This document shows, in pieces, positions 9,111-31,813 of a stretch of 35,518 nt of DNA. The stretch spans positions 1 through 35,518 of the forward strand of contig NZ_LIQR01000016.1 in assembly GCF_001418575.1 (NCBI RefSeq), written 5' to 3'. How positions within the stretch are numbered: position 1 is the first letter of the stretch; every line of letters begins with the position of its first letter. The notes under the pieces were generated by a model. That model ran no database searches, was not told where the DNA came from, and worked only from the letters and a program-made list of their open reading frames with translations. Made by a program: the position numbers and the translations under genes. Origin of the DNA: Peterkaempfera griseoplana. Its GTDB lineage: Bacteria; Actinomycetota; Actinomycetes; Streptomycetales; Streptomycetaceae.

Positions 9111-9551
9111 GGTGAGCCGGACGGACCACGTGCGGCACCCCGGCGGACAGCGCGCCGGACGAGGTCGCCATCGCGTCCTACCACCCGGCGGATCCGCAGA
9201 GCGCCGCCCACGTCGAGGAGCCGTGCGGTGACGTCCGGCCGGCCACCCGCCCCCGGACGGCGCGGGCCGGACGGCCGCTGACCGGGGCAGGTCCGCAAGG
9301 CCCCCGCTCGACCCGTCCGGCGGTCCCGTGGCGACCGCGGATGCCGTGCACAGCGGCGGGCGAGGTCCTGATCTGCCGCACCCCCGGCCGTTTCCGCGCC
9401 CCGCCCCGGCGGGGTTCCGTCATAGCCTCGACATTGCTGACAGAGTCGACGGTCCTCATCGCGGCGGACCGCCTTCGCCGGGGCGGCAGGTCCGACGGCC
9501 CCGTCCCCGACGGTCTTTTTTGAATTTCGAAGAGGAAAGAAGGTCGGCGCT
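9111..9551. other. 441-bp intergenic stretch before the E1 gene
   Basis: No gene is supported. The segment around 9145-9220 reads with coding-like bias in one forward frame but has no start or recognisable family. The final 40 bases are AT-richer, with a T6 run at about 9516-9521, and include the purine-rich ribosome site GAGGAAAGAAGG before the GTG at 9552. Confidence 0.5.
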
Positions 9552-12296
9552 GTGACGTCACCATCAAGCAGCGTTTCCTCGGCCGCACGCCCCCAGGAAT
9601 TCGGCATCAACGAGTGGCTCGTGGACGAGATACGGGAACGCTATCTGAGCGATCCCGGCTCCGTCGACGTGACCTGGCGGGAGTACTTCCGAGCGTCCGC
9701 GGCGACAGACGAGGCCAGGCCTGACGGCGCCGGGGCGGCAGCAGACCGGGAAAGCGCCGACTTCGTGGCCAAGGCGGTCCGGGTCGCGGCCCTGATCCAC
9801 TCGTACCGGGTCCGCGGGCACCTGGCGGCCGACACCGATCCCCTCCGTACGGCGCCGGCCTCCGGCCACCCCGACCTGGAGCCTTCCGGGCACGGCCTCG
9901 ACGCTGCGGACGCCGCACGGCAGTTTCCCGTCGACGGCTTCGCCGGCCGCCGGACCATGACACTGCGCGACGTCGTCCAGACGCTTCGCGACTCCTACTG
10001 CGGCACCACGGGCATCGAGTACATGCACATCCAGAATCCGGCGGAACGGCTCTGGATACAGCAGCGCGCCGAGGGGCGGCAGCCGCGGCCCGGACGCCCC
10101 GAGCAGCTGGGGATTCTGCGCCGGCTGGGCGCGGCAGAGGCATTCGAGACATTCCTGCACACCAAGTACGTGGGGCAGAAGCGGTACTCGCTGGAAGGCG
10201 GGGAGTCAGCGATCATCCTGCTGGACGCGCTGCTCGCACCCGCCGCACGCCTGGGCATGCGCGAGGTGGTCATCGGGATGGCGCACCGCGGCAGACTGAA
10301 CGTCCTCGCCAATATCGTGGGAAAGCCCTACGCCCAGATCTTCGGGGAATTCGAGGACGCGGTGGACATCCGGTCCTCGCAGGGTTCGGGCGACGTCAAG
10401 TACCACCTGGGGGCCGCCGGCACCTTCCACACCGCGGACGGTCACACCATCGCGGTCTCCGTGGTCGCCAACCCGTCGCATCTGGAGATCGTGGGCCCGG
10501 TGGCGCAGGGGGTCGTGCGGGGGCGGCAGGAACGCGCTGAGGGCGACCGGGAGGCATTCTCCGTGCTGCCCGTCGTGATCCACGGCGATGCCGCCTTCGC
10601 GGGGCAGGGCGTGGTCGCCGAGACGCTGAACATGTCACAGCTGCCCGGCTATCGCACCGGCGGCACCGTCCACGTGATCATCAACAACCAGCTGGGGTTC
10701 ACCACCGCCCCCGCCGGGGGCCGGTCGAGTGTGTACGCGACCGACGTCGCGCGGACCGTGGAGGCGCCGATCCTCCATGTCAACGGGGACGACCCCGAGG
10801 CGGTCGTCCGGGCGGCCCGGTGGGCCTTCGACTACCGGCAGGCCTTCCACAAGGACGTCGTGGTCGAGCTGGTCTGCTACCGGCGCCACGGGCACAGCGA
10901 GGTCGACGACCCGTCCATCACCCAGCCGGGCATGTACGACCGTATCGCCGCGAGGCCCTCCGTACGGAAGCTGTACGCGCAGTCGCTGCAGGACGCCGGC
11001 GTCATCGGCGAGCAGGAGATCGAACAGGCCCGGCAGATCTACCGGGCCGAACTCGAACGGGCCTTCGCCGAGACCAGCGGGACCCGGTCGGCCGACCGGA
11101 AGTCGTCTTGGCCGGACACCGGGGCGGACCGCCCGGCCCGCCGTGCCGCCACCGCGGTCGGCGAGGAGGCGCTGCGGCTCGTCCTGGGCACCCAGACCGA
11201 CCTGCCCCCGGGCTTCACCCCGCATCCGCGCGTGCTCCCGCAGCTGCGGCGACGGGCGGCCATGCTGGACGCGGGCAACGTCGACTGGGCCACTGCGGAA
11301 GCCCTCGCGATCGGATCGCTGCTTCTGGACGGAGTGCCGGTGCGACTGGCCGGCCAGGACTCCCGCCGGGGCACCTTCGGCCAGCGGCACGCCGTCCTCA
11401 CCGACCGCCGCACGGGCCGGGAGCACACGCCACTGAACTCGCTCGGCCCGGGGGCGGCGCGCTTCGCTCCGTACGACTCGCTGCTGTCCGAACTGGCCGC
11501 GCTGGCATTCGAGTACGGCTACTCACTGGCCCGGCCGGACGCGCTGGTGCTGTGGGAGGCGCAGTTCGGTGACTTCGCCAACGGCGCCCAGACGGTCATC
11601 GACGAGTACATCTCCGCTTCGGAGCAGAAGTGGGGGCAGCGGTCCGGTCTGGCGCTGCTGCTGCCGCACGGCCTGGAAGGACAGGGGCCCGACCACTCCT
11701 CCGCCCGCATGGAGCGTTTCCTGCAACTGTGCGCGGACGACAACATGACCGTCGCCAGCCCCTCCGTGCCGGGCAACTACTTCCATCTGCTCAGGGGGCA
11801 GGGCCTCGAGGTGCGGCGCAGGCCGCTGGTGGTCTTCACTCCCAAGTCCATGCTGCGGTTGAAGGCGGCGACCTCCGGGCTGGAGGAGTTCACCAGCGGT
11901 TCCTTCCGCCCGGTGATCCCCGACCGCACACAGGACCCCGCCCGGATCGAGCGCGTGCTGCTCTGCTCGGGCAAGGTCTTCTACGACCTGGACGCCCAGC
12001 GGCAGCAGTCGGGAGACGACCGGACCGCCATCGTCCGGCTGGAGCGGCTGTATCCGTTCCCCGCCGCGGAACTGCAGGCGGAACTGTCCAGGTACCCGCA
12101 GGGCGTCGAGGTGCGCTGGGTCCAGGAGGAACCGGCCAACCAGGGCGCCTGGACCTTCGTCGGACCTCGTGTCGACCGCCTGCTCCCCGGCCCTGCGGCC
12201 TGTGTGAGCCGGCCTGCCGCCTCCGCTCCGGCCGTCGGGTCCGCCAGCCGTCACGCCGCCGAGCAGCAGGAGGTTCTGCGCCGGGCCTTCGCCTGA
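9552..12296 (+). CDS. 2-oxoglutarate dehydrogenase E1 component, standalone (lacks the actinobacterial E2 domain)
   Basis: 914 residues. The thiamine-diphosphate enzyme decarboxylates 2-oxoglutarate for the TCA cycle. Visible in order: the short N-terminal docking segment (NEWLVDEIRERYLSDPGSV then DVTWREYF, about 20-47), the E1 start (VAALIHSYRVRGHLAADTDP), GMAHRGRLNVLAN (His245), the ThDP/Mg segment HGDAAFAGQGVVAETLNMSQ (Asp346), VIINNQLGFTT, CYRRHGHSEVDDPS, the transketolase-like pyrimidine domain (GQDSRRGTFGQRHAVL), and the C-terminal SGKVFYDL and LERLYPFP. The main actinobacterial enzyme (Kgd/OdhA) has about 1,230-1,270 residues because a succinyltransferase domain lies between the docking segment and E1. 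Here that domain is missing and the parts are joined by a linker of about 25 residues. No sucB or lpd is adjacent. It is therefore likely a paralogue, perhaps a 2-oxo acid decarboxylase or carboligase, or an E1 that works with another E2. GTG start with a good ribosome site. Confidence 0.9.
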   Translation: MTSPSSSVSSAARPQEFGINEWLVDEIRERYLSDPGSVDVTWREYFRASAATDEARPDGAGAAADRESADFVAKAVRVAALIHSYRVRGHLAADTDPLRTAPASGHPDLEPSGHGLDAADAARQFPVDGFAGRRTMTLRDVVQTLRDSYCGTTGIEYMHIQNPAERLWIQQRAEGRQPRPGRPEQLGILRRLGAAEAFETFLHTKYVGQKRYSLEGGESAIILLDALLAPAARLGMREVVIGMAHRGRLNVLANIVGKPYAQIFGEFEDAVDIRSSQGSGDVKYHLGAAGTFHTADGHTIAVSVVANPSHLEIVGPVAQGVVRGRQERAEGDREAFSVLPVVIHGDAAFAGQGVVAETLNMSQLPGYRTGGTVHVIINNQLGFTTAPAGGRSSVYATDVARTVEAPILHVNGDDPEAVVRAARWAFDYRQAFHKDVVVELVCYRRHGHSEVDDPSITQPGMYDRIAARPSVRKLYAQSLQDAGVIGEQEIEQARQIYRAELERAFAETSGTRSADRKSSWPDTGADRPARRAATAVGEEALRLVLGTQTDLPPGFTPHPRVLPQLRRRAAMLDAGNVDWATAEALAIGSLLLDGVPVRLAGQDSRRGTFGQRHAVLTDRRTGREHTPLNSLGPGAARFAPYDSLLSELAALAFEYGYSLARPDALVLWEAQFGDFANGAQTVIDEYISASEQKWGQRSGLALLLPHGLEGQGPDHSSARMERFLQLCADDNMTVASPSVPGNYFHLLRGQGLEVRRRPLVVFTPKSMLRLKAATSGLEEFTSGSFRPVIPDRTQDPARIERVLLCSGKVFYDLDAQRQQSGDDRTAIVRLERLYPFPAAELQAELSRYPQGVEVRWVQEEPANQGAWTFVGPRVDRLLPGPAACVSRPAASAPAVGSASRHAAEQQEVLRRAFA

Positions 12297-12523: not shown

Positions 12524-12988
12524 TCAGCGGGCCGCGGGGTCGTCCGGCGCGCCGATCCCGGCGAGAGCGTTGAGCCAGGCGATCTGCCGTCCCATGCCGC
12601 CGGTGCCCTGCAGCGGGTTGAGGGCGTGCGGCCACACCTTTCGCGCGAGGGCGGTGTGCCGGGCGCCGGCCAGCACGACGACCGGATCGAGTTCGAGCAC
12701 GCCGCGCTGCCGGGCCTGCTGCCGGAGCCGCTCGGCGGTGACGCTGCCGACGCCGTCGAGGGCGGTGTCATAGGGCTCGATGACGTCGTCGAGGGCGACC
12801 AGGCCGTGGAAGGAGGAGAGGATCAACAGGTGGTCGGGGCGCAGCCCCTGGGCCGCCCTGCGGCAGGCACGGTGGTACGGACCGGTGTACAGGTCCGCCG
12901 CTCGCGCCCGGTGGCCGAGTTTGCGGCTGCCGCAGGTGATGAGGACGAGTTCCGGCGACTGGAGCGCGGAACGGTCGGTGGCGGTCAT
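12524..12988 (-). CDS. DUF6884-like protein
   Basis: 154 residues. The sequence has LVLITCGSRKLGHRARAADL followed by YTGPYHRACRRAA, then LLILSSFHGLVALDDVIEPY, and ends with GMGRQIAWLNALAG. The CGxxK strand start, YTGxxF/Y-like segment and SAxHGLV motif are those of the DUF6884 proteins (distantly like YaaA or nucleotide-processing folds). The biochemical role is not known. The ATG at 12988 has a GGAGGG ribosome site; an upstream extension to 13168 lacks family similarity. It is convergent with the E1 gene and diverges from the TDT transporter over 481 bp, with no obvious functional tie to either. A housekeeping or phage-derived nucleotide role would be speculation. Confidence 0.7.
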   Translation of the reverse strand: MTATDRSALQSPELVLITCGSRKLGHRARAADLYTGPYHRACRRAAQGLRPDHLLILSSFHGLVALDDVIEPYDTALDGVGSVTAERLRQQARQRGVLELDPVVVLAGARHTALARKVWPHALNPLQGTGGMGRQIAWLNALAGIGAPDDPAAR

Positions 12989-13469
12989 CGTATGGCCCTC
13001 CGTGGGTGCACCGGCCGGCGGGCCCGGCAGGGTGCCTCGTCGGTGTGGTTCCTGGATCCCGGGCCGCCCGTGCGGCCGGTACCGTCCGTGGCCTTCCCCG
13101 GCGGCACCGTCGAGCCCATCACCGATTGCGCCGCAGGACAGCCGCCGGGACGGTCGCACGGCCCTCACATCGGGACACCGCTGCGCCCGCCCGTGGCCGG
13201 ACCGCCATGGGGTCCGGCAGCGGGCGGGGGCGTGCCGGTGTCCCCGGCCGCTCTTGCCGCTCGGGACAGGCGCTGCCCGTCATGTCCCGATCTGAGGGCG
13301 CCCTGGCACGTGAGGTGGTGTGGCGGGAGTGGTGTGCCGCCATAGCGTCGTACCGCCAACGGGCCGACGGTCACGGCCGCCGCCCGGGAGCTGCCGGGGT
13401 GGGTGCCGGGCGGTCGGCCGATCGCCGAACGGCGGTTTCCCGAGAACAGGAAAGTAGGCGTTCCACGCC
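12989..13469. other. 481-bp divergent intergenic region with an inverted repeat
   Basis: No gene is supported. TCGGGACA (13261-13268) and TGTCCCGA (13283-13290) form a perfect 8-bp inverted repeat with a 14-bp spacer, 180 bp before the transporter start. A further copy of TCGGGACA lies at 13170-13177. These may be regulator half-sites. The ribosome site for the transporter (AGTAGG, 13453-13458) closes the region. Confidence 0.45.
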
Positions 13470-14651
13470 GTGACTCCCCACTCCCCCGGCGCCCCGACGG
13501 TCCCCTCCAGGGACTCGGGCGCGAGGCATTCCGCCGCTGCCCGTGTCCCGCGGCCCGGAGCGGGCGGAAGGACGCGTCCGCCGCTGGGCCCCAGCTGGTT
13601 CGCGGCCGTGATGGGCACCGGTATCGTCGCCGACGCGGCCGTCACCCTGCCGAGGACCTTTCCCGGACTGCGCGACGCCGCCACGGCGGTCTGGCTGGGG
13701 GCCGCGCTGCTGCTGGTCCTGCTCACGGTCGGCTATGTCCGGCAGCGGGCGCTGCGGGTGCACGCCGGTGATCCGGCGCTGGTCCAGTTCTTCGGGGCAC
13801 CGCCGATGGCGCTGCTGACGGTGGGCGCCGGGGCGCTGCTGCTCGGCCGGCGCGTGATCGGGGCGCGGGCGGCGCTGGATGTGGACTGGGTGCTGTGGTC
13901 GCTCGGCACCGTGCTGGGACTCGCCACTGCCTGCACGGTGCCGTACCTGATGGTCACTCGGCACCGCTTCGCGCCCGACGCGGCGTTCGGCGGCTGGCTG
14001 ATGCCGGTGGTACCTCCGATGGTCTCGGCGGCCACCGGCGCGCTGCTCGTTCCGCATGTACCGGCCGGACAGCTGCGGCTGGCGCTGCTGCAGGGCTGCT
14101 ATGCGATGCTCGGGCTCGGTCTGGTGGCGGTCCTGCTGGTGCTCGCCATGGTCTACAGCCGCCTGGTGCACCATGAGGCGCCCACCGGTGCGGTGGTGCC
14201 CACGGTGTGGATCGGCGTGGGCGCACTGGGCCAGGCGGTGACGGCGCTGGGTGCGCTGGCCACGGCCGCACCCGGCACGCTGCCCGCGCCGTACACCCGG
14301 GGCGCCGCCGTCGTGGCGCTGCTGGGCGGGCTCGGTGTGTGGGGCTTCGCCATGCTGTGGCTGGTGCTGGCGACGGCGCTCACCGTGCGGGAGGTCCGGT
14401 CCGGACTCCCCTTCGCGCCGACCTGGTGGTCGTTCATCTTCCCCCTCGGCGCCTGTGTCACCGGCACCAGCGCCCTGGCTGCCCGTACGGGCTCGCAGCT
14501 GTTCGTCTGGATCGCCGTCGCCCTCTACACGCTGCTCGTCGCCGCCTGGGTGGTGGTGGCCTGGCGCTCACTGTGTCACGCCGTCGGGCGCCCGGACCGG
14601 CGGGAGGCCCCACGGGAACCCGGCGGCGCGCCGGCGCCTCCTGGGCGGTGA
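13470..14651 (+). CDS. TDT-family transporter (TehA/SLAC1-like)
   Basis: 393 residues with about ten predicted membrane helices after a 40-residue basic, proline-rich cytoplasmic N-terminus. Family features: GPSWFAAVMGTGIVADA in helix 1, GWLMPVVPPMVSAATGALL in the middle, and FAPTWWSFIFPLGACVTGTS near helix 9. TDT proteins form trimeric anion channels or export tellurite, sulfite, C4-dicarboxylates or malate. The conserved pore Phe of TehA/SLAC1 cannot be assigned without alignment. The GTG at 13470 is the only start with a nearby ribosome site. The gene is followed after 152 bp by a winged-helix regulator on the same strand. Substrate is unknown; sulfite or dicarboxylate export is a family guess. 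Confidence 0.85.
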   Translation: MTPHSPGAPTVPSRDSGARHSAAARVPRPGAGGRTRPPLGPSWFAAVMGTGIVADAAVTLPRTFPGLRDAATAVWLGAALLLVLLTVGYVRQRALRVHAGDPALVQFFGAPPMALLTVGAGALLLGRRVIGARAALDVDWVLWSLGTVLGLATACTVPYLMVTRHRFAPDAAFGGWLMPVVPPMVSAATGALLVPHVPAGQLRLALLQGCYAMLGLGLVAVLLVLAMVYSRLVHHEAPTGAVVPTVWIGVGALGQAVTALGALATAAPGTLPAPYTRGAAVVALLGGLGVWGFAMLWLVLATALTVREVRSGLPFAPTWWSFIFPLGACVTGTSALAARTGSQLFVWIAVALYTLLVAAWVVVAWRSLCHAVGRPDRREAPREPGGAPAPPGR

Positions 14652-15277: not shown

Positions 15278-15358
15278 GGGCTGACGCGCGGCGTACCTGA
15301 GGCCTCTGGAGCGAACGGGCCCGCCATGCAGGTATGCCCGCAGCCGGCGACAGACGTC

Positions 15359-15379
15359 GATTCGACCATTGCCCGAATC
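15359..15379. promoter_or_regulatory. Inverted repeat just before kinase ribosome site
   Basis: GATTCG (15359-15364) and CGAATC (15374-15379) have a 9-bp spacer and end two bases before the GGGGGAGGAG ribosome site of the kinase gene. It could be an operator or a leader hairpin that limits ribosome access. Confidence 0.4.
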
Positions 15380-15396
15380 TGGGGGAGGAGTACACG

Positions 15397-18300
15397 ATGA
15401 CGGACACGGTGGAGCGCCCGGTGGGCGGCGGCGGCATCGGTGAGGCCGAACTGCGGCAGCTTCTGGACGGTCTGACCGCTGTGCGTGACGGGGACTTCGG
15501 CACCAGGCTGCCGGACGGCAGCAGCGGCCTGCTGGCCGAGATCTCGTCGGTGTTCAACGGCATGGTGGACCAGCTGTCGCTGTTCACGTCCGAGGTGACG
15601 CGCGTGGCGCGGGAGGTCGGCACCGAGGGTCAGCTCGGCGGCCAGGCCGAGGTCCCTGGCGTCTCGGGCACCTGGAAGGACCTGACCGAGTCGGTCAACG
15701 CGATGGCGGGCAATCTGACCAGCCAGGTCCGCGACATCGCCCAGGTCGCCACCGCCGTCGCCAAGGGCGACCTGTCGCAGAAGATCGATGTGGCGGCCAA
15801 GGGCGAGATCCTGCAGCTGAAGGACACCGTCAACACGATGGTGGACCAGCTCTCCGCGTTCGCCGACGAGGTCACCCGCGTCGCCCGCGAGGTCGGCAGT
15901 GAGGGGCGGCTGGGCGGACAGGCGGAGGTGCCCGGCGTCGGCGGTGTGTGGCGGGACCTGACCGACTCGGTCAACTTCATGGCGGGCAACCTGACCGACC
16001 AGGTGCGCAACATCGCCCAGGTCACCACGGCGGTCGCCAAGGGCGACCTGTCGCAGAAGATCACCGTCAACGCCCGCGGTGAGATCCTGGAGCTGAAGAA
16101 CACCGTCAACACGATGGTCGACCAGCTCTCCGCGTTCGCCGACGAGGTCACCCGCGTCGCCCGCGAGGTCGGCACCGAGGGACGCCTGGGCGGACAGGCG
16201 GACGTCAAGGGTGTCTCCGGGACCTGGCGCGACCTGACCGGCTCCGTCAACTTCATGGCCGGGAACCTCACCGCGCAGGTGCGGTCCATCGCCCAGGTGG
16301 CGACCGCGGTGGCCAAGGGCGACCTCTCGCAGAAGATCACCGTCAATGCGCGCGGCGAGATCGCCGAGCTGAAGACCACCATCAACACCATGGTCGACCA
16401 GCTCTCCTCCTTCGCCGACGAGGTCACCCGCGTCGCCCGCGAGGTCGGCACCGAGGGACGCCTGGGCGGACAGGCGGACGTCAAGGGTGTCTCCGGCATG
16501 TGGAAGGACCTGACGGAGTCGGTCAACGTCATGGCCGACAACCTCACCGCCCAGGTGCGCTCCATCGCCCAGGTCACCACCGCGGTGGCCAGGGGCGACA
16601 TGACCCAGAAGATCCGCGTCGACGCGCGCGGCGAGATCCTGGAGCTGAAGGAGACCATCAACACGATGGTCGACCAGCTCTCCGCGTTCGCCGACGAGGT
16701 CACCCGGGTCGCCCGCGAGGTCGGCACCGAGGGCAACCTCGGTGGTCAGGCCACCGTCCGGGGCGTCTCAGGCACCTGGAAGGACCTGACCGACAACGTC
16801 AATGTGATGGCGTCCAACCTGACCGGCCAGGTGCGCTCCATCGCACAGGTCGCGACCGCGGTGGCCAAGGGCGACCTGTCACAGAAGATCACGGTGGAGG
16901 CCAAGGGCGAGGTCGCCGCACTGGCGGGCGTCATCAACACCATGGTCGACACCCTCTCCGCGTTCGCCGACGAGGTCACCCGCGTCGCCCGCGAGGTCGG
17001 CACCGAGGGCCAGCTGGGCGGTCAGGCCCGGGTGCCCAACGTGGCCGGCACCTGGAAGGACCTCACCGACAACGTCAACTCCATGGCGAACAACCTGACC
17101 AACCAGGTCCGCAACATCGCCCAGGTCACCACCGCCGTGGCCAACGGCGACCTGTCCAAGAAGATCGACGTGGACGCCCGCGGCGAGATCCTGGAGCTCA
17201 AGACCACCATCAACACCATGGTCGACCAGCTCTCCTCCTTCGCCGCCGAGGTCACCCGGGTCGCGCGGGAGGTGGGCAGCGAGGGGCGGCTGGGCGGTCA
17301 GGCCGAGGTCGAGGGCGTCTCCGGCACCTGGAAGCGCCTGACCGAGAACGTCAACGAGCTGGCCGGGAACCTCACCCGGCAGGTCCGCGCCATCGCCGAG
17401 GTCACCAGCGCCGTCGCCCAGGGCGACCTCACCCGCTCCATCACCGTCGAGGCACCGGGCGAGGTCGGGGACCTCAAGGACAACATCAACGCCATGGTGG
17501 AGTCTCTGCGCGAGACCACCCGCGCCAACCAGGAGCAGGACTGGCTGAAGACCAACCTGGCCCGGATCTCCGGTCTGATGCAGGGCAGCCGCGACCTCGC
17601 GGTCGTCGCCGACCAGGTCATGAGCGAACTCGCCCCGCTGGTGAGCGCCCAGTACGGTGCGTTCTTCCTCGCCGAGGACGCCACCGACGGCCCGCGCCTG
17701 CGCCTGATCGGCTCCTACGGCCGCCCCGCCGGGCCCGAACGCCCCGAGACCTGCCCGGTCGGACGCTCCCTGGTGGGCCAGGCCGCCGCCGACCGCGCTG
17801 TGATCAGCCTGGACGACCTTCCCGCCGACTACGTGACCATATCGTCCGGCCTCGGACAGACCCCCGCCCGCTCCCTGATCGTGCTGCCCATCGTGGTGGA
17901 GGAGCAGGTGCTGGGCGTCATCGAACTGGCCTCGCTGCACAGGTTCACCGCGGTGCACCGCGACTTCCTGGGGCAGCTGATGGAGGCCGTCGGGGTCAAC
18001 GTCAGCACGATCGTCGCCAACGCCCGCACCGACGAACTGCTGCAGGAGTCGCAGCGGCTGGCCGGCGAACTGCGGTCCCGCTCCGAGGAACTGCAGGTGG
18101 GTCAGGAGGAGCTGCAGCGCTCCAACGCGGAGCTGGAGGAGAAGGCGGCGCTGCTGGCCGAGCGCAACCGCGACATCGAGGCCAAGAACGCGGAGATCGA
18201 GCAGGCCCGCCAGGAACTCGAGACGCGCGCCCAGCAGCTGTCGCTCGCCTCCAAGTACAAGTCGGAGTTCCTGGCGAACATGAGCCACGAACTGCGCACA

Positions 18301-19950
18301 CCGCTCAACTCGCTGCTGATCCTCGCCCAGTTGCTGGCCCAGAACCCGACCCGCAACCTGATGCCCAAGCAGGTCGAGTACGCCACGATCATCCACTCGG
18401 CCGGCTCGGACCTGCTGCAGTTGATCAACGACATCCTGGACCTGTCCAAGGTCGAGGCCGGGAAGATGGACATCACCCCCGAGCCGGTGGCGCTGGGCCA
18501 GCTCCTCGACTACGTCGAGGCGACCTTCCGTCCGATGACCACGCAGAAGAGCCTCGACTTCCGCATCGTCACCGCCCCCGACGTCCCCCAGGAGATCCTG
18601 ACGGACGACTCACGGCTGCGGCAGATCCTGCGGAACCTGCTGTCGAACGCGGTCAAGTTCACCGAGGCCGGCAGCGTCGAGGTGCGCATCGAACGGGCCG
18701 CCACGGAGGAGGTGCCGGAACAGGTCCGCCACTGGGGCGAGTTCATGGCCTTCCGGGTCACGGACACCGGGATCGGTGTCGCCGAGGAGCAGCTGGAGAC
18801 GATCTTCGGCGCCTTCCAGCAGGCCGACGGCACCACCAGCCGCAAGTACGGCGGCACCGGGCTGGGCCTGTCCATCAGCCGCGAGATCGCCCAACTCCTG
18901 GGCGGTGCCATCAGCGTCCACAGCGCCCCGGGCCGGGGAAGCACCTTCACCCTGCTGCTGCCGGCCGCCAGGCCGGACTTCCGTGCCGTCGCCTCCGCAC
19001 CCCGGACCGCCGCCCCGGCGACCGCGCCCGGCCTGCCCGCCCCGGCCTCGCCGGCGGCCGTCGAGGCGGACCCCGGTACGCCGCGACGAGCGCTGGTCCT
19101 CGAAGCCCGGGTCGGCGGGCTGCTGTCGGTGGTCACCGAGAACGCGGCCGCCAACACCTTCGACCCCGCCGTCGCGGCCTCCCGCGGTCAGCGCGCGGAG
19201 GTGGTCACCGTGCTCAGCGCCGAGGAGGCCGCCGCGGCCCTCGCGGCCGGCTCCTTCCACTGCGTGGTGCTGGAGGGCGCCATGCCGGACGGCTCCACCC
19301 ACCGCTTCCTCGACGCCATGGCCGGGGACCCCGCACTGCAGCACGTACCGATCCTGGTGCACGCCACGCCCCGGCACGCGGCCGACGACCATCTGGCGGC
19401 GGGGGCGGCCGCACCGTCGGTCGAGGTCCTGCGCAGCCTGGACGACCTGCGTGAACGGGTCACCCTGCACCTGACGGCGGAGTACCCGGGCGCCGCCCTG
19501 CCGCTCGTCCGGCCCGAGGAGCTGCCCGCCCCCGAGGTCCAGGAACCCGGCGCTCTCACCGGCCGCACCGCGCTGGTCGTCGACGACGACGCCCGCAACG
19601 TCTATGCGATCAGCGGGATCCTGGAGCTGCACGGCATGACGGTGCTGGACGCCGACAACGGCCGGGCCGGCCTGGAGACCCTCCACGCCCACCCGGAGAC
19701 CGACGTCGTCCTGATGGACGTGATGATGCCGGAGATGGACGGATACGCCGCCACCCGGGCCATCCGGACCTCCCCGGACCTCGCCCACCTGCCGGTGATC
19801 GCCGTCACCGCCAAGGCCATGCCGGGAGACCGTGACAAGAGCCTCGCCGCGGGGGCCGACGACTATGTGACCAAGCCGGTCGACGCCGCGCACCTCGTCG
19901 CCGCCATCCAGCGGTGCCTGGCGGAGAGGGGTGCCACCAGTGAGGTCTGA
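15397..19950 (+). CDS. Soluble poly-HAMP hybrid histidine kinase
   Basis: 1517 residues with no signal peptide or membrane helix, so cytoplasmic. A first HAMP-like unit (about 15-65) is followed by seven tandem 92-residue repeats (66-709), each of two HAMP-like halves ([10 protein letters not shown]...WKDLTxxVN and QVRxIAQVxTAVAxGDLS). Next come a GAF domain (about 735-870), a long coiled coil (870-955), HisKA with SHELRTPLN (phospho-acceptor His964), a HATPase domain ([24 protein letters not shown]), a degenerate receiver (about 1230-1355) with Glu1293 at the phospho-site, and a true receiver with [11 protein letters not shown] (Asp1441) and VTAKAM, ending [14 protein letters not shown]. The layout resembles fungal group III (Nik1/Os1) hybrid kinases, where HAMP arrays sense osmotic or cell-stress signals. 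A strong ribosome site precedes the ATG at 15397. The last 11 bp overlap the phosphatase gene. Confidence 0.93.
15592..17523 (+). repeat. Seven tandem 276-bp coding repeats (HAMP pairs)
   Basis: Repeats begin at 15592, 15868, 16144, 16420, 16696, 16972 and 17248, with exactly 276 bp between starts and no insertion or deletion. Each encodes 92 residues. Central units share long nearly identical DNA blocks, so unequal recombination could add or remove whole units in frame. Confidence 0.93.
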
Positions 19951-22315
19951 GCTGGAGCCGGCCGCCTCCTCCGGGCAGGTTCCGGCGCAGCCCGGCGCGC
20001 TCGCCGCCGAGCCCTCGGGTGCCGCCGGTGGCACCGGGCGGCTGGCCGCCCTGGTGATGCGGCTGCAGAGCGAGGTCGAGGCGGCGCAGTCGGCCGCCGA
20101 GGGCCGCGCGGTCATCGAGATGGCCAAGGGCCTGCTCATGGAACGCCTGGACTGCTCCGCCCGGGAGGCGGACCTGCAGCTGCGCCGGCTCGCCGAGCAG
20201 GCGGGCCTGACGCCCCTGGAGGTCGCAGCCGACCTGGTCCAGGACTCCACCGTCCGCCCCGGCCCGGGCCCCGGCCCGGACACCGCGGACGCCGGGGGCG
20301 CCGCACGGCTGAGAACGGCCGAGAGCGCGGCGCTCGCCGCGCACGACTGCGACGCTGTGGCCCACTCGCTCCTCCAGCACGCTCTCGGGCCGCTCGGGGC
20401 CGTGGCCGTGGCGCTCTGGGCCTCGTCCCCCGACGGCTCGATCACCCTGGCCGGCACCGCGGGTGTCACCGAGCAGGAGAGCCACCGCTGGCGCCACGTC
20501 CCGCCGCGCGTCACCACCCTCGCCCGGCTCGCCCTCTCCCGCCGGGAGGTCCTGCACGCCCGCCGGCTGGCGGACGTCGGCGCGGTGTCCATCGCCGAGG
20601 CCGACCTTGCCGACCACGGCCGGGTCGGCGTCCCGGCGCAGGTGCACGGCCGCACGGTGGGTGTCCTGGAGGTCGTGTGGGGCAGCACCCCGCCCGTCAT
20701 CTCCGCCTCCATCGCCCACCAGCTGGAGAGCCTCGGAGAGGTCGCGGGCCACGCCCTGGACGTCCACGAGCCGCTGCCGACCGCCACCCTGGAGGCGGTC
20801 TACCCCCAGCTGCGTGAGCTCTCGGACCTGGCGGACGGCCTGGACAACGCGGCCGCACTGGTGCTCGCCCCCGCCATCGACCGGCACTCCGCGCTCACCG
20901 ACTTCCGCATCCACCACCTCAACCCCCGCTTCGCGGATCCCGCGGGGCGGCCCCGCACCGCACTGATCGGCAAGGGGCTGCTGGAGAGCTACCCCCTGGT
21001 GGGTGCGCCCGGCGGCCTGTTCGACGCGGTCGAGCACGTCTACGCCACCGGCGAACCCTTCCGCGCGCCGCTGCAGATCTCCGCACTGGTCGACGGAGTG
21101 CCCATCCACTCCCGCGCCCAGGCGAGTCTCAGCCGCCACGGCGCCTGCGTCCTGGTCGTCTGGCATGTGGAGGCCGAGGCCAGCCGTCTGGCCGACCTGC
21201 TCCAGCACGCCCAGCGCCTCGGCCGTATCGCCGGCTTCGAGGAGGACTTCCGCACCGGGGAGATCACCTGGAACGACCAGCTCTTCGACCTGTACGGCCT
21301 CCGGCCGGGCGACAAGCTGGTCCGCCTGGAGGACATCGCCACCTACGTCCACGGCGACGACCACCACGCCGTCCACCGGTTCCTGCGGACCCTGCTGCAC
21401 CACCGCCGCCCCTCGGCGGCCGCGTTCCGGCTCGAACGCGCCGACCAGGTCACCCGGTACATCCGGATCATCGCCGAGCCGGTCCTCGGCCCGTCGAACA
21501 CCCTGGAGGGCGTCCGAGGCGCCTACCAGGACATCTCCGCCCAGCACTGGACCGAGGTCGCCCTGGCCGCCACCCGCGAACAACTCGCCCACACCGAGGC
21601 GGAGGCCAGGGAACGCAACCGCCTCACCCTGCGTCTGCAGCAGGCCATCATGCCGCCGGCCCACGCCGCCACCGGACTGCCCGGTCTGCAGATCGCGGTG
21701 CGCTACCGGCCCGCCGAGCAGGAACACCTGGTCGGCGGCGACTGGTACGACGCCCTCCCGCTGCCCGGCAACCGGGTCCTGCTGTCCGTCGGCGACGTGG
21801 CCGGGCACGGCATCGAGGCCGCCACCGGCATGGTCGCCCTCCGCAACGCCCTGCGCGGGCTGGCAGCCACCGGCGCCGGCCCCGGTCAGCTGCTCACCTG
21901 GCTCAACAGCGTGAGCCACCAGCTCACCGACGAGATCACCGCCACCGCGGTGTGCGCCATCTTCGACCCCGGCACCCGTGAGCTGCGCTGGGCGCGTGCC
22001 GGCCACCTCCCTCCGGTGCTGGTCCGCGACCATGTGCCGACGCCCCTGCCGCTCACCTCCGGGCTGCTGCTCGGCGCCCTCCCGTCCGCCACCTACGAGG
22101 AGCACTCCCTCACGCTGGAGCCGCACGACACCCTGCTGATGTTCACCGACGGCCTCATCGAGCGCCGGGACACCGTGCTGGAGACGGCCCTCAGCGAACT
22201 GCTGACCCACCTGCCGCAGGAGGCAACGCTGGAACAGCTCGTGGACCGGCTGCTCGTCCGCAGTTCCTCCGACACCGACGACGACACCTGCCTGATCGCC
22301 GTCAACATCACCTGA
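19940..22315 (+). CDS. ANTAR-GAF-PAS-SpoIIE (PP2C) protein phosphatase
   Basis: 791 residues. An N-terminal ANTAR domain (about 35-95; GRAVIEMAKGLLMERLDCSA then READLQLRRLA) normally binds paired RNA hairpins to prevent termination. A GAF-like region follows (about 115-260), then a PAS-like region (about 285-410) and a clearer PAS domain (about 430-535; FRTGEITWNDQLFDLYGL). The C-terminal PP2C/SpoIIE domain (about 570-791) has the metal-binding aspartates in VGGDWYDA (Asp601), GDVAGHG (Asp619), FTDGLIE (Asp737) and DDDTCLIAV (Asp782), so it should be active on phosphoserine or phosphothreonine of anti-sigma-antagonist-like proteins. The GTG at 19940 is chosen over the GTG at 19931 because the GGAGAGGGG site is correctly spaced. 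It overlaps the kinase stop by 11 bp, so the two are translationally coupled. Confidence 0.92.
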   Translation: MRSELEPAASSGQVPAQPGALAAEPSGAAGGTGRLAALVMRLQSEVEAAQSAAEGRAVIEMAKGLLMERLDCSAREADLQLRRLAEQAGLTPLEVAADLVQDSTVRPGPGPGPDTADAGGAARLRTAESAALAAHDCDAVAHSLLQHALGPLGAVAVALWASSPDGSITLAGTAGVTEQESHRWRHVPPRVTTLARLALSRREVLHARRLADVGAVSIAEADLADHGRVGVPAQVHGRTVGVLEVVWGSTPPVISASIAHQLESLGEVAGHALDVHEPLPTATLEAVYPQLRELSDLADGLDNAAALVLAPAIDRHSALTDFRIHHLNPRFADPAGRPRTALIGKGLLESYPLVGAPGGLFDAVEHVYATGEPFRAPLQISALVDGVPIHSRAQASLSRHGACVLVVWHVEAEASRLADLLQHAQRLGRIAGFEEDFRTGEITWNDQLFDLYGLRPGDKLVRLEDIATYVHGDDHHAVHRFLRTLLHHRRPSAAAFRLERADQVTRYIRIIAEPVLGPSNTLEGVRGAYQDISAQHWTEVALAATREQLAHTEAEARERNRLTLRLQQAIMPPAHAATGLPGLQIAVRYRPAEQEHLVGGDWYDALPLPGNRVLLSVGDVAGHGIEAATGMVALRNALRGLAATGAGPGQLLTWLNSVSHQLTDEITATAVCAIFDPGTRELRWARAGHLPPVLVRDHVPTPLPLTSGLLLGALPSATYEEHSLTLEPHDTLLMFTDGLIERRDTVLETALSELLTHLPQEATLEQLVDRLLVRSSSDTDDDTCLIAVNIT

Positions 22316-22448: not shown

Positions 22449-23468
22449 CTACGGCGCGACCGCCCCGGCGGTCGGCTCCGCCGTACCGGCGCCGGCCGTC
22501 CGGAAGCGGGCCCGGAAAGCACCCGGTGTGACACCCACCTGGCGGACGAACGCCCTGCGCAGCGACTCGGGTGAGCCGAACCCGCTGCGCCGGGCCACCA
22601 CCGCCATGGGGTCGTCGCCCGTCTCCAGCAGCACCTGGGCGGCCTCCACCCGCACCTGCTCCACATAGCGGGCCGGGGTGGTTCCCGCCTCCTCGTGGAA
22701 GAGCCGGGTCATGTGGCGGACGCTGACCCCCGCCCGGCGGGCCATGGCCGGGAGGGTGTGGTTGGCGCCGGGGTTCTCCACGACGGCGTCCAGGACCTGA
22801 CGGAGCATCTCCTGGTGGATGTGCGAGGCCCGGGAGCGGACGCTGAACTGGGACTGGCCTCCCGGCCGCTGCAGGAAGATGACCATGTCCTTGGCGACCG
22901 ACCGGGCGACCTCCGCGCCGTGGTGCTCCTCGACGAGCGCCAGGGAGAGGTCGATACCGGTGCTGACCCCCGCCGAGGTCATCATCCGTCCGTCCCGCAC
23001 GAAGATGGCGTCCGCGTCGACCTGTACGGAGGGGAAGCGCAGGGCCAGCTGCCGGGCGTGCCGCCAATGCGTGGTGGCGCGGCGGCCGTCCAGCAGGCCG
23101 GCCGCGGCCAGCAGGAACGCCCCCGTGCACACCGACGCCGTGCGACGGGCCGTCGCGTCGAGTCGCCGGACGGCGTCCAGCAGCCCCTCGTCCTTGATCA
23201 GCGTCTCCCACTCCGGGCCGCCCGGGACCAGCAGGAGGTCGCACGGCCCGCTCAGGTCGTCCACGGACCGGTCGGCCCTGAGCCGGGTCCCCGAGGAGGT
23301 GATCACCTCCGCCCCGTCCTCCGACGCGATCTGCACCCGGTAGCGCCCGCCGAACTCGTTCGCCGAGGCGAACACCTCGATGGGGCCGGTCACATCGAGC
23401 AGCCGCACCCCCGGGAAGACGAACACCGTCACGGTGAGCGGACCCGTGCCAGGGTGCTTGCGGTTCAT
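22449..23468 (-). CDS. GlxA-family AraC-type regulator (DJ-1/PfpI domain plus HTH)
   Basis: 339 residues. An N-terminal class I amidotransferase-like DJ-1/PfpI domain (about 10-175) includes VFVFPGVRLLDVTGPIEVFA, LLLVPGGPEW and the nucleophile elbow ASVCTGAFLL with Cys114 kept. The C-terminal AraC DNA-binding domain (about 215-320) has two helix-turn-helices: LPAMARRAGVSVRHMTRLFH and PMAVVARRSGFGSPESLRRA then F. Such proteins regulate catabolic and stress genes in Streptomyces, often with unknown ligands. The ATG has a CGGAGG ribosome site. It is convergent with the phosphatase gene. Upstream is 333 bp without a gene and then the TetR gene on the same strand, so its target is not evident from context. 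Confidence 0.93.
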   Translation of the reverse strand: MNRKHPGTGPLTVTVFVFPGVRLLDVTGPIEVFASANEFGGRYRVQIASEDGAEVITSSGTRLRADRSVDDLSGPCDLLLVPGGPEWETLIKDEGLLDAVRRLDATARRTASVCTGAFLLAAAGLLDGRRATTHWRHARQLALRFPSVQVDADAIFVRDGRMMTSAGVSTGIDLSLALVEEHHGAEVARSVAKDMVIFLQRPGGQSQFSVRSRASHIHQEMLRQVLDAVVENPGANHTLPAMARRAGVSVRHMTRLFHEEAGTTPARYVEQVRVEAAQVLLETGDDPMAVVARRSGFGSPESLRRAFVRQVGVTPGAFRARFRTAGAGTAEPTAGAVAP

Positions 23469-29038: not shown

Positions 29039-31696
29039 TCAGTCGACGGCGGCGCTCTCCAGGGCGGTCAGTCGCTCGGCCGCCTCGGCGGTCGCCGGGG
29101 ACTCCAGCCGCCGGTACACGGCGACGGCCTGCCGGATCTCGGCCAGGGCCGTCGCACGGTCGCCGAGGGCGAGGGCGCAGCAAGCGGCGCCGTCCAGGGC
29201 CCTGGCCTCGTCCAGCGGATTGCGGGCGCGCCGTGCGAGCAGCAGGGCCTGCCGGTAGAGCGGGAGCGCCGCCCGGGGGCCCTCGGTCGTGACGGTCAGG
29301 GTGCCCAGTTCGAGGAGTGTGCCGGTCTCCCCGGGGCGGCTGCCGAGGTCGCGGTAGATCGCCAGCGCCTGCCCGTACAGATCAGCGGCGGCCCGGTGGT
29401 CGCCGAGCGCCTGGCGGGCACGGCCCAGACCGCGCAGCGAGTCGGCCTCTCCGTGGCGGCTGCCGACCTCCCGGCAGGCGTCCAGCGACCGCTGGTGGAG
29501 GTCGGCCGCGCCGCGGTGGTCGCCGAGGGCGTGGCGCACCCGGCCCAGGCCGCGCAGGGCGTTGGCGAGCCCCTGGGCGCTGCCCAGCTCCTGATAGATC
29601 GTCAGGGCCTGTCCGTAGAGCTCCCCCGCGCTGCCGCGGTCCCCTCTCTCGTCCAGTACGAAGGCCAGGTCGTGCAGCGCCGCGGCCTCGCCGCGGCGGT
29701 CGCCCAGGGTGCGGTAGAGGGCGACGACCTGCCGGGTCAGGTCGGCGGCTGCGGAGGAGTCGCCGGAGGAGTGCCGGGTCCGCCCGAGGTCGCAGAGCGT
29801 ACGGGCCTCGCCGAGGTGGTCGCCGAGGTCCCGGAAGATCTCCAGGGCGCGCTCGTGCAGATGCCCCGCCTCCTGGGTCTCCCCGGTCAGCAACCGGATC
29901 CGGCCGAGTTCATGGAGGTCGTTGGCCTGGCCGTGGCGGTCGCCCAGTTCCTGGTGGATCAGCAGCGCCTGCTCGTACAGGTGCGCCGCGGCCCGGTAGT
30001 CGCCGGTCGCATGCCGCACCCGGCCCAGGTCGCACAGGGCGTCCGCCTCGCCGAGGCGGTCACCGCTGCGCGCCGCGGTGGTCGCCGCCGACTGGTGCAG
30101 GGAGGCGGCCTGCGCCCAGCGGCCGTCCAGCAGCAGGAAGGCCGCCAGGTCCATGGAGAGGGCCACGGTGAGCGAGGGGTGGGCCGCCGCCGCGGGATGC
30201 GCGAGGAAGGCGAGGACGTTCTGGTGCTCGGTCCGCATCCACGCCAGGGCACCCCCACGGTCGGTCAGCGCGGGCACCGCCACGGGCTCCCCTGAGGTCG
30301 CGGACCGGCCGGGGCGGGTACGGCGGGCCAGGTGCTGGTTGGCCCGCGCGGCGGTGTACCGGTAGTAGTCGGCGAGCCTCCGCAGCGGCTCGTCATGCTC
30401 CGCCCCACCATCCTGACGGCCGGTCATGGTTCGTGCGTAGAGCCCGATGAGGTCGTGGAACCGGTAGCGGCCGGGGTCGCGCTGGACGAGCAGATTGTGG
30501 TCGAGCAGCGTCTCCAGGAGCCGTTCCGCCGTGAGGTGGTCGGTGCCGAGCAGGTTCCCGGCCGTGTAGGCGTCGAAGTCCTGGCCGGGGAAGCGGCCCA
30601 GCCGGCGGAAGAGGTCCTGCTCCTGCCCGGACAGGGCCGCGAAGGAGGTGCCGAAGGCGGCGGCCAGGCTGCGGTCCTCGTCCATGAGGTGACCCAGCCG
30701 CCGGTGCTCGTCACGCAGCTGCTCGACGAGGCTCTCCACCCGCAGACTGCGGCTGTGCCGCAGCCTGGCCGCGGCGATCCGGATCGCCAGCGGCAGGTGG
30801 CCGCACAGGCCCACCAGCTCGGCGGCGGCCGGGTCACCGGCGGCGATGCGGCCGGCCCCGGCGCCCTCCCGGAGCAGGGCGACGGCGTCCGGTACGGGCA
30901 GCACGTCCACAGTGAGGATGTGGGCGTCGTCCAGGCTGGTGAGGCGCTTGCGGCTGGTGATCAGCACCAGGCATCCGGGTGTTCCCAGCAGCAGGGGCCG
31001 CACCTGGGCGGCGCTCGCGGCGTTGTCGAGGACGATCAGGGTGCGGGTGTCGGCCAGTCGTTCCCGGTACAGGGCGGCGCGGGTGCTCAGGTCTCCGGGT
31101 ATCTGCTGGGGCGGGACGCCCAGGGAGCGCAGGAGCCAGTCCAGTGCCTCGTCCGCGGTGAGCGGGGCGGTGCCGGCCGTGTGGCCGTGCAGGTCCACGA
31201 AGAGCTGTCCGTCGGGGAAGTGCGCGCGGGCCCGGTGCGCGGCCCGGACGGCCAGTGCGGACTTGCCGACGCCGCCCATCCCGTTGATCGCCGAGACCAC
31301 CACCATGCCTGCTGCACTTCCCGCGGGTGCTGCCCGGGCCAGCGCCAGGAGCTGGTCGAGCTCCCGGGCCCGTCCGGTGAACAGCCTCGTGTCGTAGGGG
31401 AGTTGGCAGGGCATCCCCGTCCCCCGCGGCCGGTCCTCGGCTGCGGGCACCGCGGCGGTACGCGCCGGGGCCTGGGCGGTGCGGGCAGCGGCGATCAGCT
31501 GTCCACGGCGGTGGGTGTCGAGGTGCAGGGCGTCCGCGAGCCGGGCGACCGAGGACAGCCGCGGCAGGCGCCGTCCCGCCTCCAGCACGCTGATCGAGTG
31601 CGCGGACACCCCGGAACGGTCGGCGAGTTCGTCCTGTGTCCAGCCGGCCAGCAACCGGCAGTCGCGAAGGAGTTCACCGAAGGCGCTGCCAGCCAC
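29039..31696 (-). CDS. XRE/NB-ARC/TPR regulator (AfsR-like STAND protein without SARP domain)
   Basis: 885 residues. The N-terminal XRE helix-turn-helix (about 5-70) has LLAGWTQDELADRSGVSAHS. The NB-ARC/STAND ATPase (about 95-410) has the P-loop INGMGGVGKSALAVRAA (Lys145), Walker B-like TLIVLDNAAS, and GCLVLITSRKRL followed by the CGHLPLAIRIAAARL (GxP) motif. The C-terminal half (about 545-880) contains about eight TPRs of 40 residues (repeating GDHRAAADLYGQALAIYRDL-type units). STAND proteins are ATP-driven switches; in Streptomyces, AfsR-like proteins of this design control secondary metabolism. The GTG at 31696 is preferred to a TTG at 31813 because the housekeeping promoter spans the latter. 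A STAND defence role is possible but no effector domain is present. Confidence 0.88.
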   Translation of the reverse strand: MAGSAFGELLRDCRLLAGWTQDELADRSGVSAHSISVLEAGRRLPRLSSVARLADALHLDTHRRGQLIAAARTAQAPARTAAVPAAEDRPRGTGMPCQLPYDTRLFTGRARELDQLLALARAAPAGSAAGMVVVSAINGMGGVGKSALAVRAAHRARAHFPDGQLFVDLHGHTAGTAPLTADEALDWLLRSLGVPPQQIPGDLSTRAALYRERLADTRTLIVLDNAASAAQVRPLLLGTPGCLVLITSRKRLTSLDDAHILTVDVLPVPDAVALLREGAGAGRIAAGDPAAAELVGLCGHLPLAIRIAAARLRHSRSLRVESLVEQLRDEHRRLGHLMDEDRSLAAAFGTSFAALSGQEQDLFRRLGRFPGQDFDAYTAGNLLGTDHLTAERLLETLLDHNLLVQRDPGRYRFHDLIGLYARTMTGRQDGGAEHDEPLRRLADYYRYTAARANQHLARRTRPGRSATSGEPVAVPALTDRGGALAWMRTEHQNVLAFLAHPAAAAHPSLTVALSMDLAAFLLLDGRWAQAASLHQSAATTAARSGDRLGEADALCDLGRVRHATGDYRAAAHLYEQALLIHQELGDRHGQANDLHELGRIRLLTGETQEAGHLHERALEIFRDLGDHLGEARTLCDLGRTRHSSGDSSAAADLTRQVVALYRTLGDRRGEAAALHDLAFVLDERGDRGSAGELYGQALTIYQELGSAQGLANALRGLGRVRHALGDHRGAADLHQRSLDACREVGSRHGEADSLRGLGRARQALGDHRAAADLYGQALAIYRDLGSRPGETGTLLELGTLTVTTEGPRAALPLYRQALLLARRARNPLDEARALDGAACCALALGDRATALAEIRQAVAVYRRLESPATAEAAERLTALESAAVD

Positions 31697-31785
31697 GTTC
31701 TCCCCTGGGACGCAGTCAGCCGCCGAGGCGGCACAGACCGGGAGGACCGGGTTGCGTCCCGGCGTCTCCCGCTCAACCGCCGTGC

Positions 31786-31813
31786 AAACTACCACCTGGC
31801 GACGCCGCGTCAA
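31786..31813 (-). promoter_or_regulatory. Housekeeping-type promoter of the NB-ARC gene
   Basis: On the minus strand TTGACG (31813-31808) and TAGTTT (31791-31786) have a 16-bp spacer. The -35 box is nearly ideal. Transcription should start near 31779, giving a leader of about 80 nt before the GTG at 31696. Confidence 0.65.

Follow-up and report, generated by a model that had tools for sequence, protein, structure and literature searches.

Actinobacteria are described in the available text of PMC10415282 as reliant on a fused, two-in-one OdhA, and that text and the available part of PMC10581250 report that fused OdhA receives the lipoyl groups of E2p in trans, so that for an actinobacterial E1 it is normal to work on the lipoyl domain of another protein. 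Stand-alone E1o proteins (SucA) are found in Proteobacteria and others, and DHTKD1 (human E1a, the 2-oxoadipate dehydrogenase E1) is a second E1 beside the housekeeping one. The window analyzed here, a stretch of 35,518 nucleotides that makes up the whole of one contig (C68) of the Peterkaempfera griseoplana draft genome (8.24 Mb in 802 contigs), encodes an E1 that can be compared with each of these. With its parent group Kgd/OdhA (M. smegmatis KGD, here MsKGD, and C. glutamicum OdhA) it shares the docking segment, the E1 domains and the catalytic histidines; lipoyl groups must come in trans in those proteins, and would have to in this one. It differs, along with a clade of close relatives, in the absence of E2o, in four substitutions (F506Y, N748S, R745H and G563D in MsKGD numbering), in the loss of the fusion-specific W413, and in being accessory and patchily distributed, with its own neighborhood of SLAC1, DUF6884 and DJ-1/AraC genes.

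The order of docking segment and E1 without an E2, and a similar length, are shared with SucA, but the clade is only 43-47% identical to SucA, lost an E2 that it once had, and has no adjoining E2 gene. DHTKD1 likewise has a tyrosine at the F506 position; its Tyr370 and Ser263 pocket changes, however, are absent from the clade, it is eukaryotic, and its structural chain is a more distant match to the window E1 than the KGD or SucA chains. In the literature searched, which covered few subscription papers, nothing was found on an actinobacterial Kgd lacking E2. In this conserved clade the fusion has been reversed, with docking segment and catalytic core kept. Such proteins can, moreover, be credited by database models with an E2 activity that they lack: the copy on the NBC_01558 plasmid is annotated as "multifunctional oxoglutarate decarboxylase/...dihydrolipoyllysine-residue ...".

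The E1 gene and its host genome

The gene and the parts of its product are as follows.

9530..9543, + strand: Shine-Dalgarno-like purine run 5' of the GTG start (read from sequence)
9552..12296, + strand: E2-less Kgd-type 2-oxo acid dehydrogenase E1, 914 aa, intact GTG-started frame (Pfam, NCBIfam)
9600..9689, + strand: N-terminal docking segment, residues 17-46, motif in 19/19 clade members (Pfam, alignment)
9690..9770, + strand: unconserved linker, residues 47-73, sited where fused Kgds have linker and E2o (alignment)
10137..11078, + strand: E1_dh domain, residues 196-509 (Pfam)
10185..10187, + strand: Tyr212, MsKGD F506Y (residue comparison; the DHTKD1 Tyr190 position in the available text of PMC8146983)
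10887..10898, + strand: His446-Gly-His448-Ser449, catalytic H747 retained between R745H and N748S (residue comparison)
11280..11858, + strand: Transket_pyr (transketolase pyrimidine-binding) domain, residues 577-769 (Pfam)
11874..12290, + strand: OxoGdeHyase_C (2-oxoglutarate dehydrogenase C-terminal) domain, residues 775-913 (Pfam)

Among NCBIfam models the protein is best matched by that for Kgd (PRK12270; 1340 bits against a cut-off of 878, best stretch 67-914), with the SucA models below it at 1158 and 1005 bits. The docking segment corresponds to Pfam 2-oxogl_dehyd_N (residues 18-48, 33.9 bits, cut-off 27), and a Pfam scan of the protein found no 2-oxoacid_dh (E2, PF00198) domain. Between the docking motif and the conserved start of E1 lies a linker of only 27 aa (25-36 aa across the clade). 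The initial annotation had described an E1 paralogue without the fused E2, its docking segment joined almost directly to E1, and both parts of that description hold. An AlphaFold model, built on an alignment of 20 sequences (the window protein, 16 fused Kgd and 3 SucA, with the E2-less relatives left out), has a mean pLDDT of 76; helices are predicted in the docking region at 14-33 and 40-51, linker residues 51-64 fall below a pLDDT of 50, and the nearest solved structure is M. smegmatis KGD (2xt6, E 4.2e-78). When the frame upstream of the start is translated and aligned, a Lys-Lys-Ala stretch stands directly before the start in 17 of 18 relatives, consistent with a common ribosome site across the clade. 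A promoter scan found no sigma-70-like site; a weak terminator-like site at 9501-9513 is at about chance level.

One other E1 of Kgd type is present in the host genome: a fused E2-E1 Kgd on contig C532, whose E1 part is about 62% identical to the window E1. Its frame is cut by the contig edge within an Ala/Pro-rich linker, and the docking segment of a sister-species Kgd, used as a query, matched only the window's own segment, so that the Kgd docking piece seems to be missing from this assembly; the whole fused gene is present in the sister species (G002). The full-length Kgd that the initial annotation had proposed to look for elsewhere in the genome was thus recovered in its E2 and E1 parts, without its N-terminus. 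E2 domains (PF00198) are found on C800, C300, C524, C532 and C40, while C288 and C679 give partial matches; on C484 an Lpd-like frame (read by eye) adjoins a lipoyl domain. Whole-genome profile searches placed neither an E2 (PF00198) nor a lipoyl domain (PF00364) on C68, and neither E2 nor E3 was found among the window genes scanned. The earlier remark that no E2 or E3 gene is near is borne out for E2 and, among the genes scanned, for E3, and the case of an only E1 with a nearby E2 is excluded.

Distribution and origin of the E2-less clade

In a family sample of 394 genomes, that of the host included, 23 others had at least two matches to the E1 C-terminal domain, and the window protein was searched against these 23, single-match genomes being left out. 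Fifteen full-length E2-less relatives were found in 14 genomes (two in G150), 69-80% identical to the window E1 in that search and 67-80% by BLAST, and all 14 encode a long fused Kgd as well. In G011, G128, G152, G192 and G098 there is a second long Kgd frame and no E2-less copy; E2 was checked in both frames for G011, G128 and G192 and in one for G152 and G098. A protein search of a 293-genome order sample added one carrier (G784, 67% identical), and none was found in 15 genomes from the order's other two families. Among the matches listed for a 394-genome class sample, the only ones above 1175 bits are those of three family members, G000 (the host), G063 and G112. Three Streptomyces plasmid records (NBC_01340, NBC_01558 and NBC_01450) also carry an E2-less E1, and these, the window protein and the 15 genome relatives make up the 19-member set used throughout. 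In the first samples (60 relatives, and 80 named loci kept of 591) other long matches did not exceed about 64% identity, and actinobacterial frames with an uncut start were all fused to E2; the idea of an orphan gene was overturned by the larger family sample. Some decay is visible elsewhere: G266 holds a fragment, and the G784 copy has one in-frame stop.

With the housekeeping E2 as query, the 18 relatives of the window E1 lack E2 both in the frame and in the stretch fetched around it, which measured 12 kb at L179 and 19.9-20.7 kb at the other 17 loci. For the window protein, the Pfam search took in all of C68. Over all frames the E2 BLAST test scored E2 as present in 111 and absent in 55, some loci contributing the same gene twice, and at SucA loci it detected a separate E2 frame in 14 of 17, the other three being short contigs. 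Several loci were set aside as E2-less candidates: the frames of L184 (G473), L183 (G059) and L078 are cut at contig ends, E2 was found in L185 (G434), and in L108 (Thermochlorobacter) it occupies a separate upstream frame. An 802-contig draft in which the housekeeping Kgd is itself cut at a contig edge might raise the suspicion of an assembly artefact or a pseudogene, but the 18 other loci are intact, single-contig genomes and linear plasmid records among them, and dN/dS is 0.13-0.33 for 8 pairs within the clade (0.28 for the window against L165); these results refute the suspicion and leave it with almost no probability.

The 19 E2-less rows form a single clade (SH-aLRT 100) inside fused Kgd/OdhA in a 109-row tree (145 rows collected, 36 removed for thinning), with fused forms of Acidobacteriota, Bacteroidota, Rhodothermota and Acidimicrobiaceae branching below it. 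The nesting agrees in a 53-row LG+C20 tree containing 10 of the 19, where some supports are 91-95. A constraint that grouped the 38 fused rows to the exclusion of the E2-less rows was rejected in an AU test (p 0.00185), implying that the ancestor was fused and that its E2 was later lost. Placement of the clade within the fused proteins differs between the two trees, and AU tests rejected neither its grouping with Streptomycetaceae Kgd (p 0.36) nor a position below all class-Actinomycetes Kgd (p 0.155); the trees contain long branches, and the AU tests share the model's bias. Judged from these phylogenies, the clade is the product of E2 loss by a fused E2-E1 ancestor. Its SucA-like domain order could instead reflect an ordinary SucA from outside actinobacteria, or descent from E1 proteins without any fusion in their past. 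Against this, the Kgd model scores above the SucA models; identity is 53-64% to class-Actinomycetes Kgd as opposed to 43-47% to the SucA loci; the clade is nested among fused proteins in both trees, with the fused-only grouping rejected at the p value above; and an E2 gene is adjacent in none of the 19 E2-less loci, compared with 14 of 17 SucA loci. On present data score, identity, trees and AU test refute this origin, and we consider it very improbable. The comparison with Kgd and SucA that the initial annotation had called for therefore puts the clade inside fused Kgd and excludes an ordinary SucA.

Active-site residues and gene neighborhood

Residues were compared, in MsKGD numbering carried over by alignment, among the 19 E2-less proteins, 16 SucA and two sets of fused proteins, 99 Kgd from class Actinomycetes and 8 from elsewhere. 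The catalytic His539, His579, His747 and His1020 are unchanged in all 19. Position 506 is Tyr in 19/19 and Phe in every class Kgd (99/99), other fused protein (8/8) and SucA (16/16); position 748 is Ser in 19/19 and Asn in all 123 other E1s; position 745 is His in 19/19, as it is in 7/16 SucA and 3/8 other fused, and Arg in 99/99 class Kgd; position 563 is Asp in 19/19 and in 2/8 other fused, and Gly in 99/99 class Kgd. W413 is present in all 107 fused rows (99 class, 8 other) and in no E2-less protein (0/19) or SucA (0/16), and thus marks the fusion; it may contact E2o. Arg781, reported as an E2 contact in the available text of PMC10415282, is found in every class Kgd (99/99), in half of the other fused proteins (4/8) and in 8/19 of the E2-less ones.

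The available text of PMC8146983 places DHTKD1 Tyr190 at the MsKGD Phe506 position, and that of PMC7340257 lists Tyr190 among the DHTKD1 pocket changes favoring 2-oxoadipate; F506Y accordingly suggests that the E2-less enzymes may have an altered substrate. It can do no more than suggest this, since the two other DHTKD1 changes are absent (positions F682 and Y578 are Kgd-like, Phe and Tyr, in 19/19, with no DHTKD1-type Tyr682 or Ser578), and since Tyr190, although its replacement by Phe costs DHTKD1 about 5.7-fold with 2-oxoadipate, is called not crucial for binding (PMC8146983, in the portion available). That just one of the three pocket positions at which DHTKD1 departs from MsKGD is altered counts against the reading of a changed substrate. 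The other conspicuous site would be the counterpart of DHTKD1 His435, which lies in loop 2 and is said to engage E2 (PMC7340257, available text): by alignment this would correspond to MsKGD His747 with N748S. In such a lipoyl-arm loop, N748S and R745H could weaken acyl transfer, which would count against work with a lipoyl domain in trans.

Neighboring genes in the window that recur at other E2-less loci are the following.

12524..13168, - strand: DUF6884 gene (Pfam PF21818, 83 bits), near in 14/19 loci
13470..14651, + strand: SLAC1/TDT-family anion or dicarboxylate transporter (Pfam PF03595, 239 bits)
22449..23468, - strand: DJ-1/PfpI-AraC (FtrA-like) regulator, 12 kb from the window E1; relative in L170

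As a control, 49 fused-Kgd loci of named, other genomes were taken with flanks of about 6 kb, and a comparable distance was used in the E2-less loci; because the latter share ancestry, the neighbor counts are not independent. A SLAC1-family gene is near E1 in 16 of the 19 E2-less loci and in none of the 49 controls: 13 loci have one type, two further loci a second and one a TehA-like third, and no such gene is near E1 in L165, in L166 or in L179, a locus at a contig edge. The DUF6884 gene is likewise absent near all 49 control genes, as is a strong DJ-1/PfpI-AraC gene, which is close by in 13/19 E2-less loci, with the window's own somewhat farther off; L186 has only a weak AraC match (35%, 7 kb away). 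Other neighbors are an HxlR regulator (6/19 against 0/49) and a generic SDR gene (10/19 against 3/49), while the window's histidine kinase, used as a query, matches 1/19 E2-less and 11/49 fused-Kgd loci. Gene order and strand vary among loci, indicating conserved proximity rather than one operon. In L187 the transporter, annotated as a "tellurite resistance/C4-dicarboxylate transporter family protein", lies 217 bp upstream of E1 on the same strand. The linked transporter and DJ-1/AraC regulator suggest that the E1 is induced when a certain organic anion has to be used or otherwise dealt with; shared by related species and set beside a conserved anion transporter and regulator, it is probably a specialized accessory enzyme.

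Possible roles of the E2-less E1

Whether the protein is an accessory E1 for a 2-oxo dicarboxylate, working in trans with a shared lipoylated E2/E3, is in our estimate about an even call from sequence comparison. The strongest case for action within a complex comes from the docking segment: the motif FG.N.W.V.E....Y...P.SV...W...F is kept in 19/19 E2-less proteins next to an unconserved linker, and a related short motif occurs in 85 of 111 fused frames, the remainder being cut or divergent. Of the two functions put forward in the initial annotation, a free decarboxylase or carboligase and the borrowing of an E2 domain, this conservation leans toward the one that involves a complex. For human E1o, the available text of PMC8146983 regards the N-terminal region as a possible binding domain for E2o and E3. 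With docking segment and E1 machinery kept and E2o gone, the simplest reading is that the protein joins the same core and relies on an acyltransferase in trans. The docking segment would bind the E2p/E3 core of a hybrid pyruvate/2-oxoglutarate complex; the E1 would decarboxylate a 2-oxo dicarboxylic acid, either 2-oxoglutarate or, as proposed from F506Y, an acid somewhat longer or more polar than that; the acyl group would be handed to a lipoyl domain, and the acyl-CoA would be made in trans by E2p, by a branched-chain E2 or by the housekeeping Kgd with its E2o domain. Candidate partners in the host genome are the E2 genes on other contigs and the Lpd-like frame beside the lipoyl domain on C484. 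A point against this reading is that no additional E2 gene accompanies the E1: PF00198 counts, in which a dedicated E2 was sought, do not differ, with 78 in 15 carriers and 75 in 15 non-carriers, fragments included. A fuller version would combine an undone E2-E1 fusion, a second E1 parallel to DHTKD1 with a changed pocket (F506Y, N748S), a shared pyruvate/2-oxoglutarate complex and a mobile SLAC1 and DJ-1/AraC cassette, all serving one longer or more polar 2-oxo dicarboxylic acid; as a whole this is unlikely.

Another possibility, a doubtful one, is that the protein acts on its own as a non-oxidative decarboxylase or a carboligase. With E2o gone, the ThDP-enamine would leave as a semialdehyde (with 2-oxoglutarate, succinate semialdehyde) or be coupled to an aldehyde; an aldehyde dehydrogenase would then take the product, or it would be exported. 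Loss of the E2 domain would fit, as would N748S and R745H, which flank H747 in what is by alignment the loop said to engage E2, and a SLAC1-family carrier could serve for export. The gene next downstream of E1 encodes a CoA-acylating semialdehyde dehydrogenase in L177, and in L167 and L168 a gene for DXS, a second ThDP enzyme, is directly downstream. Such an enzyme would, however, have no need of a docking segment, which all 19 members keep, and an aldehyde dehydrogenase was noticed in only 1 of the 19 loci (there was no systematic count).

E1 enzymes of the Kgd/SucA family are dimers, and a regulatory isoform that pairs with the housekeeping Kgd through the latter's E1 part, so that mixed complexes would have fewer E2o or altered FHA (GarA/OdhI) control, would be in keeping with the similarity of the two E1 parts in this genome. 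We regard it as improbable. Some FHA-contact positions do vary (D795 is found in 11/19 E2-less proteins), but others are kept (Glu or Asp at 801 in 19/19, R802 in 17/19), and the presence of F506Y and N748S in every member, together with the transporter link, would be left unexplained.

Genes around the E2-less E1 in the window

Between the window's SLAC1 transporter and DJ-1/PfpI-AraC regulator genes, a very large sensor protein gene is followed directly by a SpoIIE phosphatase gene. The window also holds a large regulator gene.

Window 15334-22315: sensor protein (1538-aa frame; HAMP matched seven times, plus GAF, histidine kinase and receiver), then SpoIIE phosphatase (also ANTAR, GAF and PAS domains)
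Window 29039-31813: large HTH / NB-ARC / TPR regulator gene

Neighbours and decaying copies in relatives

In two genomes, a 1-deoxyxylulose-5-phosphate synthase gene lies directly 3' of the E2-less E1 and on its strand; the copy tested, in locus L168, scored 574 bits, exceeding the cut-off for this identity. At locus L174 (11601-13133), the SLAC1 transporter is fused to an N-terminal DUF488 domain. Two copies of the E2-less E1, in genomes G266 and G784, are in decay: the former is a fragment that the SLAC1 and DJ-1-AraC genes still adjoin, and the latter carries one in-frame TAG.

L167 11428-13422, E1 strand: 1-deoxyxylulose-5-phosphate synthase gene
L168 11392-13320, E1 strand: 1-deoxyxylulose-5-phosphate synthase gene
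G266:C1:8447271-8448005 (L180): E2-less E1 fragment
G784:C190:20957-23701: E2-less E1 copy with the in-frame TAG

Kgd and fused E2-E1 proteins in other genomes

Two long frames for Kgd, the normally fused actinobacterial protein, are present in each of genomes G011, G128, G152, G192 and G098, the second G098 frame having only 56% identity to the window protein. E2-E1 fusions also occur beyond Actinomycetota, in Rhodothermota, Acidobacteriota, Bacteroidota, Ignavibacteriota and Chlorobiota (loci L102, L103, L110, L121 and L125); in the tree, these branch below the actinobacterial fused proteins.
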